Below, piece by piece: positions 3,995-7,579 of a DNA stretch of 7,704 nt. Under the pieces are notes generated by a model, which had not been told where the DNA came from, did no database searches, and saw only the letters and a program-made list of their open reading frames with translations. The DNA is from Pseudomonadota bacterium. Its GTDB lineage: Bacteria > SAR324 > XYD2-FULL-50-16 > JAHJRI01. Position 1 is the stretch's first letter. Every line of letters starts with the position of its first letter. A program made the translations under genes and the position numbers. Where the stretch lies: the NCBI GenBank assembly GCA_022360105.1, contig JAKSDL010000063.1, forward strand, positions 1 to 7,704, written 5' to 3'.

Positions 3995-5059
3995 ATGAGA
4001 AACATGATCAGCAATTTTAGTAAACACAGCTTAAAAGGATGCCCAAAAATAAAAATCATTCTACCATGTATTCTGCTGGCTTTACTTATCGGATGCTCCC
4101 AAATGAAACCCGTCAGACAAGATCCTCTAATCGGAAAAATATATTCCAGCCATAATAAACAGGAAATTACATACCAGGAATTGCTTGATGATGTCACAAA
4201 AGCCGAGGTTATCTACCTTGGTGAAAACCACGAAAATGCAGACCATCATCGTCACCAGATGCAGATAATTGAAGACCTGATAAAACAGGGCAAAAAACCT
4301 GTAATCGGATTTGAGTTTTTCAGTGTGGATCAAACCGGTCATTTGATGGCTTATGTATCCAGTCAGTCCGCAAAACATCCCAAATTCGTCGATGACAAAA
4401 GAGAGGCAATACTAAGGAACGATCTCGGCTGGTTAAGCAGAGCGGATACAACCTGGCAATTCTATTTTCAGTTCATCAAACTGGCAGCCGAAAATAAACT
4501 GACCGTTTTTGGAGCGGATTTACCAACTGGAATTGTCAGAAGAATTACCAGGAACGGCATTGAAAAATTGACCGAGATTGAAAAGGCTTTTTTACGGGCA
4601 ACCCCGTTCGAGAATGAAGCTTATCGGCAGTTAATGCAAGCAAGGTTTAAAGCAGCACATTGCGGCTACGCGCACCAGAAAATGATGGAGAGAATGTATG
4701 ATACCTGGCTTGCCAGAAATGACACCATGGCACACTCCATCGCCACAATGAGAAAATCAAACCCGGATCAGCCGGTTGTCATGATTCTGGGCAAAGGCCA
4801 TACGGAAAACAATATGGCTGTGTATGACAGGGTCGCGCACCGAATACCAAACATTAAACAACTTAATCTCGGTTTTACCGAGATCGCCATCAATCCAACA
4901 CCACTTGAAAGCTATTTTTCTGCCCCAAAAGTCGGAAATAAAACCTTTCCCTCCTCATTTGAATTTCTCTGGTTTACCCAAAGAACCAGCTATGAAGACC
5001 CTTGTGAGAGATTTCGTGAACAATTAAAACGCATGAAGAAATCACATAAAGCCAAGTAA
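3995..5059 (+). CDS. ChaN family (Cofac_haem_bdg, DUF399) lipoprotein
   Basis: The 354-residue product starts with a basic region, a hydrophobic segment (about 20-33) and a lipobox LIGC with Cys34, so it should be exported and lipid-anchored. The rest matches the ChaN family, known from a Campylobacter iron-regulated haem-binding lipoprotein: YLGENHENADHHRHQ (74-88, with Glu77, His79, His84 and His85), GFEFFSVDQ (105-113), DLGWLSRADTTWQFY (143-157), VFGADLPTGIVRRI (171-184) and VMILGKGHTENN (262-273). Family members bind haem and are thought to help iron or haem acquisition at the envelope; no receptor or transporter gene adjoins here. AGGA at 3982-3985 is a weak ribosome binding site at usable spacing; the ATG at 4004 would also keep the signal peptide. 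The gene converges on the arsR-type gene with 22 bases between stop codons and no clear terminator, so read-through antisense is possible. The symbol is withheld because function is inferred from family alone. Confidence 0.88.
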   Translation: MRNMISNFSKHSLKGCPKIKIILPCILLALLIGCSQMKPVRQDPLIGKIYSSHNKQEITYQELLDDVTKAEVIYLGENHENADHHRHQMQIIEDLIKQGKKPVIGFEFFSVDQTGHLMAYVSSQSAKHPKFVDDKREAILRNDLGWLSRADTTWQFYFQFIKLAAENKLTVFGADLPTGIVRRITRNGIEKLTEIEKAFLRATPFENEAYRQLMQARFKAAHCGYAHQKMMERMYDTWLARNDTMAHSIATMRKSNPDQPVVMILGKGHTENNMAVYDRVAHRIPNIKQLNLGFTEIAINPTPLESYFSAPKVGNKTFPSSFEFLWFTQRTSYEDPCERFREQLKRMKKSHKAK

Positions 5060-5081
5060 GGAATATCCTTCTAAATCTAAA

Positions 5082-6206
5082 TTAGTTCTGCTTTTGCAAA
5101 AATCCGGCTAAGGCTCCGATGGTTTTTTCTGCAAATTCTTCATTGATTTCATACACCTTTGCACTGGTCTGTCTTCTTTCCTTTAAGAACCCGGTAGCGC
5201 TCAATTGTTTCAGATGGCGTGAGGTTGCGGATTGGCTTAATTCCAATTGGTTCATGATTTCCTGAGAGGAAAGTTCCCCTTGTTCCGCTATCAGTTGGAT
5301 CATTTTCAAACGGGTATCATCCGCCAAAGCATTAAGCCTGACATTAAGGTCATTTCGATTCAGATCTGACGTGACAGCCTGAATGCCTTCAGGAAGTCTG
5401 GCCCCATACGAAACATGGAAGGTATTATCAGCAATGTATTTAACAACGTAAGGTCCGATAAAAGGCGATGGAGTAAGCAATACACAACACACTTGTCTTA
5501 ACCACTCCACTTTCCATGGCCATTCCTGCCATTCATCCAACACATCCTGATTGGTAACGGTCTTTACAGCTTCAAATCGATCCATGCTTGTGAGATCGAG
5601 CTTTTGAAATGCCGATACCGACTCCTCCAGCAGAGGCTTATTGCGTTCCCACTCCCTGGACAGATACTTTTCCCACATAGTTTTTAAGTGGGAAATGATA
5701 AACGACTTGAGTTTTGGTGGATCAACAAGATATTGATAACTCAAGGCTTCTGTTTCAAAATCTGCATGCCGAATCTCAAAATTGTCTCGAATAAACTCCA
5801 AAAAAGAACCTTCGGTTTTTAAAATCTTTTCAAGATCAATTGTCTCCGGTTTTTCCAAACCAGGATTTCCGTCATATTTCCTGATAAGAATCCTATCCGC
5901 ATAACGTTGGAACAACCGCTCCTTAAACACTTCCGGTTGCAACCCACTCAAATGGGAAATAAATTCAGGAACACCGGACCAGTATTCGACACTAAAAAAA
6001 CAATAATGTAAACCATGAACGATAATCCTGTTGTTTAATCGCTCCTCAGCTGTCATGGAGCGATTAATCTCCATTATCGAAGGGTTCATCCCGGGAAGCT
6101 TGTCGATAGAATTCAAAAGCACCAAACTTGTTTGAAAATCCTGAACAGGCCCCAGGAATACTTTGATTGAAGCATTTTTGGGAACAACAATGGAATCGTA
6201 AGGCAT
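5082..6206 (-). CDS. Transcriptional regulator with C-terminal ArsR-type winged helix and large N-terminal domain
   Basis: This 374-residue protein is about three times longer than a classical ArsR (about 100 residues). The C-terminal part, about 283-365, is an ArsR-like winged helix: LNALADDTRLKMIQLIAEQGELSSQEI, then recognition helix SQSATSRHLKQL (324-335) and the wing region GFLKERRQTSAKVYEI. The metal-sensing CVC motif of ArsR/SmtB is absent, so it probably does not sense arsenic through that site. Residues 1 to about 280 form a mixed helical domain without membrane segments, resembling the long N-terminal regions (DUF5937-like) of some ArsR-type regulators; this is recalled resemblance, and its ligand is unknown. 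Two adjacent cysteines (240-241) lie in it. The start is supported by AAGGAC six bases before the ATG. It follows the 69-residue gene by 18 bases, so both are transcribed together from a promoter that holds a dyad, suggesting autorepression. Confidence 0.85.
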   Translation of the reverse strand: MPYDSIVVPKNASIKVFLGPVQDFQTSLVLLNSIDKLPGMNPSIMEINRSMTAEERLNNRIIVHGLHYCFFSVEYWSGVPEFISHLSGLQPEVFKERLFQRYADRILIRKYDGNPGLEKPETIDLEKILKTEGSFLEFIRDNFEIRHADFETEALSYQYLVDPPKLKSFIISHLKTMWEKYLSREWERNKPLLEESVSAFQKLDLTSMDRFEAVKTVTNQDVLDEWQEWPWKVEWLRQVCCVLLTPSPFIGPYVVKYIADNTFHVSYGARLPEGIQAVTSDLNRNDLNVRLNALADDTRLKMIQLIAEQGELSSQEIMNQLELSQSATSRHLKQLSATGFLKERRQTSAKVYEINEEFAEKTIGALAGFLQKQN

Positions 6207-6680: not shown

Positions 6681-6775
6681 CGGAAGTTTTCAAAATTTTC
6701 AGCTTTTCCTGCAAGATTTCTGCACATTTTTCCTGCAAAATCTCGGTATATTCCACATCACCCGTGCCTATCGGT

Positions 6776-6805: not shown

Positions 6806-6836
6806 TCTCAAATAGATATCAAACCAAGGAGACAAG

Positions 6837-7463
6837 ATGCTGGATAAAATCAAAAGTAAAATACCCCAGAGCAAGGAATCTCCAGCGCTTAAAATGATTA
6901 TTGTCGGAATGTTAACGCTGTTGATGATGATCCCGATGGGAATGATCGAGTCTGTCATCACAGAACGACATTACAGACTCAGTGACACCCAAAGGGAAAT
7001 AAGTAATAACTGGGGGGCAGCCCTTTTGACGATCCGCTCCGTTAAATACGCCATTCTTTATATTGTATTAACATTCACGGCATTCTTCATGTTTGAAACC
7101 TTGGGCAAGCTCCGGATTCATCCTCTGCAGTATCTGCTGATCGGACTGTCTATTTGTTTATTTTACCTGAATTTGCTATCTATTTCGGAACACATAAGCT
7201 TCAATAAGGCATATGTAATAGCTACCATGGGGATTGTAGGGCTTGTCTTTGGTTACAGTATAGCGGTTTTGAGAAGTAGACCCAAGGCAACTAATATTGC
7301 CGGAATTCTGACTACTTTGTATGGATTCCTTTTCATTCTTTTAAAATCGGAAACCTACTCACTATTAATAGGCACAATCGGTCTTTTTGCAATCCTGGCA
7401 ACCATCATGTACATCACCCGCAAGTTGGATTGGTATAATACGGCAGCCCAGGATAAAGTCTGA
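6837..7463 (+). CDS. creD: CreD family inner-membrane protein lacking the large periplasmic domain
   Basis: The 208-residue product starts at an ATG preceded by AAGGAG (6826-6831, five bases away). Residues 17-61 match the CreD N-terminus: membrane segment KMIIVGMLTLLMMIPMGMIESVI, then the juxtamembrane ITERHYRLSDTQREISNNWG. From about 62 to 201 it matches the CreD C-terminal membrane block: IRSVKYAILYIVLTFTAFFMFETL, LRIHPLQYLLIGLSICLFYLNLLSISEH, and the final TRKLDWYN. Segments are predicted near 19-39, 70-89, 97-117, 124-145, 152-170 and 173-194, six in all as in full CreD. Full-length CreD is about 450 residues; the missing 240 or so are the periplasmic domain between segments 1 and 2. The join near residues 60-66 is in frame, with no sign of decay on either side. 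CreD belongs to the CreBC regulon in enterobacteria and is linked to envelope integrity and beta-lactam response; its biochemistry is unknown. Here it stands alone, divergent from an ArsR-type operon. Confidence 0.85.
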   Translation: MLDKIKSKIPQSKESPALKMIIVGMLTLLMMIPMGMIESVITERHYRLSDTQREISNNWGAALLTIRSVKYAILYIVLTFTAFFMFETLGKLRIHPLQYLLIGLSICLFYLNLLSISEHISFNKAYVIATMGIVGLVFGYSIAVLRSRPKATNIAGILTTLYGFLFILLKSETYSLLIGTIGLFAILATIMYITRKLDWYNTAAQDKV

Positions 7464-7490
7464 TATCGATTACAATATTTGTTATGTGCC

Positions 7491-7503
7491 GTTCCTACGG
7501 AAC
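7491..7503. repeat. Short palindrome GTTCC-TAC-GGAAC
   Basis: Five-base perfect arms with a three-base loop, first of three closely spaced palindromes after creD. Short palindromes of this look are often multicopy intergenic repeats in FCB-type genomes, as far as I recall; copy number cannot be judged here. Confidence 0.45.
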
Positions 7504-7530
7504 TCTTGTGTACATGGCAAATTCCGCATC

Positions 7531-7550
7531 CCAGCGGTTAAAACCGCTGG
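7531..7550. repeat. 20-nt palindrome CCAGCGGTT-AA-AACCGCTGG
   Basis: Nine-base perfect arms around AA form a strong hairpin on either strand. It sits between the GTTCC palindrome and the GCCCC hairpin and resembles REP-type elements. The motif is probably dispersed through the genome, which one window cannot show. Confidence 0.55.
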
Positions 7551-7562
7551 CTACTATATGAC

Positions 7563-7579
7563 GCCCCTAAGGGGCTTTT
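7563..7579 (+). terminator. creD: Terminator-like hairpin GCCCC-TAA-GGGGC followed by TTTT
   Basis: A GC-rich five-base stem with a three-base loop runs directly into four Ts, 100 bases after the creD stop. It could end creD transcription. It may equally be the third unit of a repeat cluster, since it is spaced like the two palindromes before it. Confidence 0.45.

Follow-up and report, generated by a model that had tools for sequence, protein, structure and literature searches.

CreD, a member of the Cre regulon, is a protein of the bacterial inner membrane. In the window, by which we mean the whole stretch of 7,704 nucleotides analysed here, its gene has only 208 codons, and alignment with a full-length relative together with structure models indicates that one in-frame deletion has removed the entire periplasmic beta domain from the protein in this SAR324-type lineage. 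Our preferred account, held with moderate confidence, is that CreD lost this domain in that one event, that the remaining membrane core is the working part of the protein and that the domain can be shed. CreDs reduced to the core are, by sequence comparison, recurrent and, where this was tested (group C below), conserved; the window is a young, independent instance.

The window gene lacks the entire periplasmic domain

Both ends of the window protein had been read as CreD sequence in an earlier note on this DNA, which proposed an alignment to PF06123 (CreD). The profile matched in two stretches with 220.9 bits, above the Pfam gathering cut-off of 23, the best stretch pairing residues 65–200 with positions 293–428 of the 428-position profile, so that the C block reaches the profile end. 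On NF008712, the NCBIfam CreD equivalog, the protein scored 223.9 bits, below the cut-off of 275, as expected for a protein without 247 residues, whereas the full-length CreD of a SAR324 relative reached 496.2 bits; five short proteins of groups A and B and two of group C that were tested did not reach the cut-off either. The frame, ribosome binding site and six membrane segments, all held to be intact in the note, are indeed so, as judged from the ATG-started frame, the sequence AAGGAGA ahead of it (Table 1) and an AF2 model of the window protein in which the six segments appear as helices (pLDDT 83.1, pTM 0.77). AAGGAGAC likewise precedes creD of the relative.

That relative, locus L001 of the SAR324 cluster MAG PL25a_bin.53, was the nearest of 15 loci found in a scan of genome contigs (86% in the best segment). 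It carries a 455-aa CreD at 4422–5789, the single creD match in its genome (G001), and the window protein aligns to it across one join with no further gap (455 − 247 = 208). The AF2 model of L001 CreD (pLDDT 88.5) has helices at residues 16–29 and 31–59, beta strands from 63 to 302 and helices at 308–317 and from 319–337 onward. Alignment and AF2 helices place the N-terminal membrane helix and the five C-terminal ones in the window CreD; missing is the large domain between helices 1 and 2, residues 63–309 of L001 CreD, which in the model make up all of the beta-rich periplasmic domain together with its exit linker. The clean in-frame loss with preserved flanks that the note described is therefore also domain-exact with respect to L001 CreD. 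The note was right about the join and the loss, but the join lies after residue 62, not at residue 60, and 247 residues are missing, not about 240.

Table 1. Features of the creD locus in the window and of its protein
Feature	Position	Strand	Basis or remark
Direct repeat TYCTGCA-N4-TTCTGCA, candidate CreB-type binding box	6707-6724	+	One forward-strand match each in window and L001
Shine-Dalgarno AAGGAGA	6826-6832	+	Read directly
Mini-creD ORF	6837-7463	+	ATG start, 208 aa plus stop
N block, codons 1-62 (first membrane helix and ER-containing stretch behind it)	6837-7022	+	Aligns to L001 CreD 1-62
Join, with 741 nt (247 codons) fewer than in L001 creD	7022/7023	+	Alignment; identical join in P0001
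C block, codons 63-208 (short helix and membrane helices 2-6)	7023-7463	+	Aligns to L001 CreD 310-455
AF2 helices in C block of window protein	Residues 72-90, 96-117, 122-145, 148-170, 175-194
Palindromic (REP-like) repeats 3' of creD	7493-7576		Shared with L001/L015

The join is shared by a sibling sequence

The join recurs in P0001, a 158-residue protein represented by two ENA contigs and four member sequences. At position 133, P0001 has Thr, as do L001 CreD and P0018 (a 455-aa CreD from a separate record, with a C block 88% identical), and the window has Ile. Past codon 152, P0001 continues after KAT with I-ILPEF and then ends; because window DNA read one frame over gives ILPEF and a stop, this is a shift of reading frame. 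A sequencing error is a possible source of the shift; unless it is one, decay of the short gene seems to be under way in the sibling strain.

The same sequence makes it very improbable that the short gene arose in assembly, through collapse of a full-length creD at short repeats. Such a collapse would suit the full length of L001 and P0018 and the abundance of repeats 3′ of the creD locus, but P0001 is a second public sequence with the same join, its Thr133 and frameshift mark it as no copy of the window record, and the two breakpoint regions of L001 share no exact direct repeat of more than 5 nt.

The window copy may be working or in early decay

Over the 208 codons, window and L001 creD differ with a dN of 0.085–0.096 and a dS of 0.74–1.52, that is, a dN/dS of 0.06–0.13 (up to 0.16 in the C block), and the creD dN falls between those of KamA (0.047) and ChaN (0.14); the divergence behind these ratios is mostly older than the deletion. 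Replacements confined to a single lineage number 18 in the window (two being alignment effects at the join), nine in L001 and three in P0018, and all three differ at five positions. The excess in the window only hints at relaxed selection, as the root of the comparison is not fixed. One of the window replacements, Asn153, falls where a membrane helix begins and has a frequency of 0.0 among 118 other full-length rows.

A deletion that inactivated creD, leaving a frame still open because the event is recent and by luck in frame, would account for the frameshifted sibling allele, for the larger number of replacements on the window branch than on those of L001 or P0018, Asn153 included, for the bare fragments and broken creD genes of other genomes (G194, G277, G333; G527; G1755, G1702) and for the rarity of CreD in SAR324 (4 of 52 genomes), which implies that it is dispensable there. 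It accounts less readily for boundaries that are domain-exact, for the retention of the start, Shine-Dalgarno sequence, upstream repeat and invariant charged core residues, and for core-only CreDs that are stable in another lineage; we rate early decay of this kind slightly below an even chance. It bears only on whether the window copy is still made and used, and there it overlaps with our preferred account, under which the odds between a working mini-protein and early decay are about even. The note's view of a functional rather than decaying mini-protein is thus weakened for the window copy, since P0001, the sole other sequence joined in this way, is frameshifted and staying in frame is by itself a one-in-three event. 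Two signs that the note had named against function, absence of short homologues and loss of selection in close relatives, divide: there are short homologues, but P0001, the closest relative that has this join, shows loss.

Gene neighbourhood and possible CreB control

The five other window proteins that were scanned, an M20-type amidohydrolase, DCC1-like, KamA-family radical SAM and ChaN-like proteins and a regulator of the ArsR type, are ordinary. The order DCC1-kamA-chaN-creD is common to the window and L001, and L001 is without the ArsR-type gene, which lies intact between chaN and creD in the window (5082–6206); L001 4071–4135 keeps 65 bases matching its middle, and DNA may have been lost between chaN and creD in each of the two lineages.

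The direct repeat ahead of the window gene also occurs upstream of L001 creD, at 4294 on the scanned forward strand. Its period of 11 bases would fit a regulator of the OmpR/PhoB type such as CreB, making it a putative box through which CreB might control creD in the window. The window ends 241 bases past creD, ahead of any creBC genes. In L015, from the same MAG as L001, copies of the creD tail and palindromic repeats are followed by CreB-like (233.6 bits) and CreC-like (155.6 bits) genes, for which these are the best NCBIfam matches, yet below the cut-offs of 273 and 356. The last ~60 bases of creD and the palindromic repeats are tandemly duplicated in this MAG (L001 5726–5902 and 6090–6265; L015 267–442 and 662–852); window 7400–7576 corresponds to one unit of the array, which in the MAG apparently leads to the CreB/CreC-like genes.

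Core-only CreDs in other bacteria

A search for short homologues, as the note had advised, turned up core-only CreDs in three groups (A, B and C) besides the identical join in P0001. In a first protein search (17 matches at E ≤ 1e-5 among 557 candidates) only P0001 and P0015 were core-only; a profile of core-only sequences then gave 319 matches at E ≤ 1e-10 from 7,998 candidates scored, of which the best 120 were examined. Among the matches listed, group A comprises at least eight core-only proteins of about 221 aa (219–241; P0015, P0137–P0139, P0141–P0144) and group B at least three of 191–200 aa (P0196, P0212, P0218); in every one a complete helix 1 is followed by a linker and helices 2–6. 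A hydropathy screen of 130 proteins of at most 390 aa, three of them without a recognisable helix-2 motif, found 14 with a hydrophobic segment ahead of helix 2: P0001, the 11 of groups A and B, and P0140 and P0178, which are without part of the domain.

Whole genomes were surveyed with PF06123 in draws that partly overlap. The profile matched in 4 of 52 genomes of the SAR324 phylum, 34 of 369 of the class and 60 of 398 of the phylum of a Luteimonas genome, 79 of 345 of the phylum of a Bacteroidetes genome and 17 of 240 of the class of the genome carrying L002; none of the matches in these samples was a core-only CreD, and bare fragments occur. In the phylum of a Pontiellaceae genome (L014), 59 of 240 genomes matched and four were core-only. 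One of these four belongs to the Verrucomicrobiota-side family of group C, in which 79 of 200 genomes matched: 40 full length, 28 core-only and 11 partial, broken or weak, two of which (G1768, G1762) may be partial core-only genes. The rows were sorted by hand, and the 28 include the four core-only genomes of the Pontiellaceae phylum sample.

The survey also returned other forms of creD. Two genes of the group C family are broken by stops (G1755:C1:1465857-1467127; G1702:C83:10424-11237), and isolated 52-residue C-terminal fragments (about profile 376–428) lie at G194:C1:2179081-2179236 and G527:C4:12440-12595. In nine genomes (G1506, G1420, G1459, G1454, G1393, G1562, G1423, G1378, G1544) the CreD match is without about profile 52–85, a smaller gap, located where the periplasmic domain begins; L033 4249–5463 was noted with them. 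Divergent frames of ~410–510 residues (G838, G935, G817, G1144; G007, G008; G1421, G1591, G1530, G1428, G1596) match CreD chiefly in the membrane core, the remainder being mostly unrecognised, and may combine the core with other periplasmic parts.

Group C is conserved and mostly adjoins creBC

In all 28 group C genes, helix 1 and the core lie in a single open frame, helix 1 being found by the profile in 15 and read from the sequence in the other 13, and no internal stop was listed for any of them in the whole-genome PF06123 search. The NG86 dN/dS of the core is 0.06–0.16 in the 22 pairs of highest protein identity, a choice that favours low values; over the 327 of 378 pairs with 0 < dS < 1.5 it reaches at most 0.485, with a median of 0.195. 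Linkers differ among these proteins in both length and sequence.

By tblastn, CreB/CreC-type genes adjoin the core-only creD upstream and on the same strand at 22 of the 28 loci. They are absent by the same search at five (L037, L038, L039, L041, L057), and at L049 the contig stops inside the kinase. Both CreB proteins tested (329.2 and 337.2 bits) pass the NCBIfam cut-off of 273, and all three CreC proteins tested (385, 394 and 373.4 bits) pass that of 356. Both genes are adjacent in 5 of the 14 full-length creD loci examined among the family's 40.

Conservation of the core was assessed at the 36 window core positions at which at least 93% of 119 full-length CreDs share one residue. R67, K70, E87, H95, Y99, E118, Y140, R195 and W199 are kept in the window, in 8/8 proteins of group A, 3/3 of group B and 28/28 of group C, as are several hydrophobic positions and glycines. 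The window departs at three of the 36 (75, 112 and 180), and group C at Y71 (H in 21), F75, T79, P96, Q98, L112, F122, L161, Y162 and G182; of these, T79, L112 and G182 are departures common to its full-length cousins, but F75 and Y162 are not. The cousins themselves have H95 in only 8 and W199 in only 7 of 14.

Core-only CreDs have at least three origins

On a 61-row core tree, group A (100/99), group B (100/99) and window with P0001 (100/97) stand apart, the last grouping with L001 and P0018 (99/97). On a 76-row tree that takes in 16 of the 28 group C rows and 14 full-length rows of their family, group C forms one clade (100/97) within a branch (99/97) holding 13 of the 14. AU tests, which like the trees rest on about 147 columns with some long branches and number nine, reject placing the window with A + B (0.004) as well as with each group singly (values below), and also B + C (0.004) and A + B + C (0.003); they do not reject A + B (0.32, 0.052) or A + C (0.0585). 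With window, B and C pairwise separate, a single origin is rejected and core-only CreD must have arisen at least three times, barring a regain of the domain, which we hold unlikely.

Discussion

Since the deletion begins and ends on the periplasmic side of the membrane, removal of the loop would leave the topology unchanged and yield a six-helix core bearing the family's invariant charged residues R67, K70, E87, H95, E118 and R195. This core would be the working part of CreD, a CreB-induced envelope-protection factor in the inner membrane, and the periplasmic domain a module for regulation or partner binding that lineages are able to lose. The membrane part is probably useful alone, as other bacteria independently made the same loss and kept the short form intact, and the note's proposal that the core has a role of its own is well supported by groups A–C, with their conserved short homologues. 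A wider claim, to which we give an even chance, is that core-only CreD is a distinct form which evolved repeatedly, from at least three origins, remains under the control of CreBC and performs the membrane job of CreD alone; the window would then show how such a conversion begins, here in a SAR324 lineage.

The note's other proposal, a split system in which another gene now supplies a periplasmic domain to pair with the core, is the least probable reading and finds no support in the searches: no piece between the N and C blocks was listed in the 28 group C genomes by PF06123, no separate domain was found in the 28 group C loci by tblastn with four periplasmic domains of the same family, and the window gave only noise at E > 1.

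In S. maltophilia, envelope and division defects of CreD null mutants are described in PMC4689548, and six transmembrane helices are stated for CreD in PMC5402928. In the literature searched, which covers few subscription journals, no paper was found that combines CreD, truncated and 'periplasmic domain', and none of the best-matching titles concerns a short CreD. Natural core-only CreDs, conserved and mostly beside creBC, suggest that the smallest active portion of CreD is probably the core of six helices bearing R67, K70, E87, H95, E118 and R195, and make this question directly testable with a protein of 190–240 residues. The window, as a young, domain-exact deletion near close full-length relatives, offers a natural before-and-after pair.

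Compared with known systems, the window CreD shares the first membrane helix, membrane helices 2–6 and the invariant charged core residues with full-length CreD (PF06123; NF008712), and its gene neighbourhood with the full-length gene of its SAR324 relative, but is without the periplasmic domain. Groups A and B match the window in architecture and in the invariant charged core residues, yet have separate origins from it (AU p 0.019 and 0.0013). Group C likewise has helix 1, a short linker and helices 2–6 and differs in origin (AU p 0.0029), in the HPxQY motif, which is mostly HAxHY, and in the longer, variable linker, which between the ER motif and the helix 2 motif spans ~30–53 residues (two values of 71 count from an earlier DR and are 40 by the other count) as against 24 in the window.
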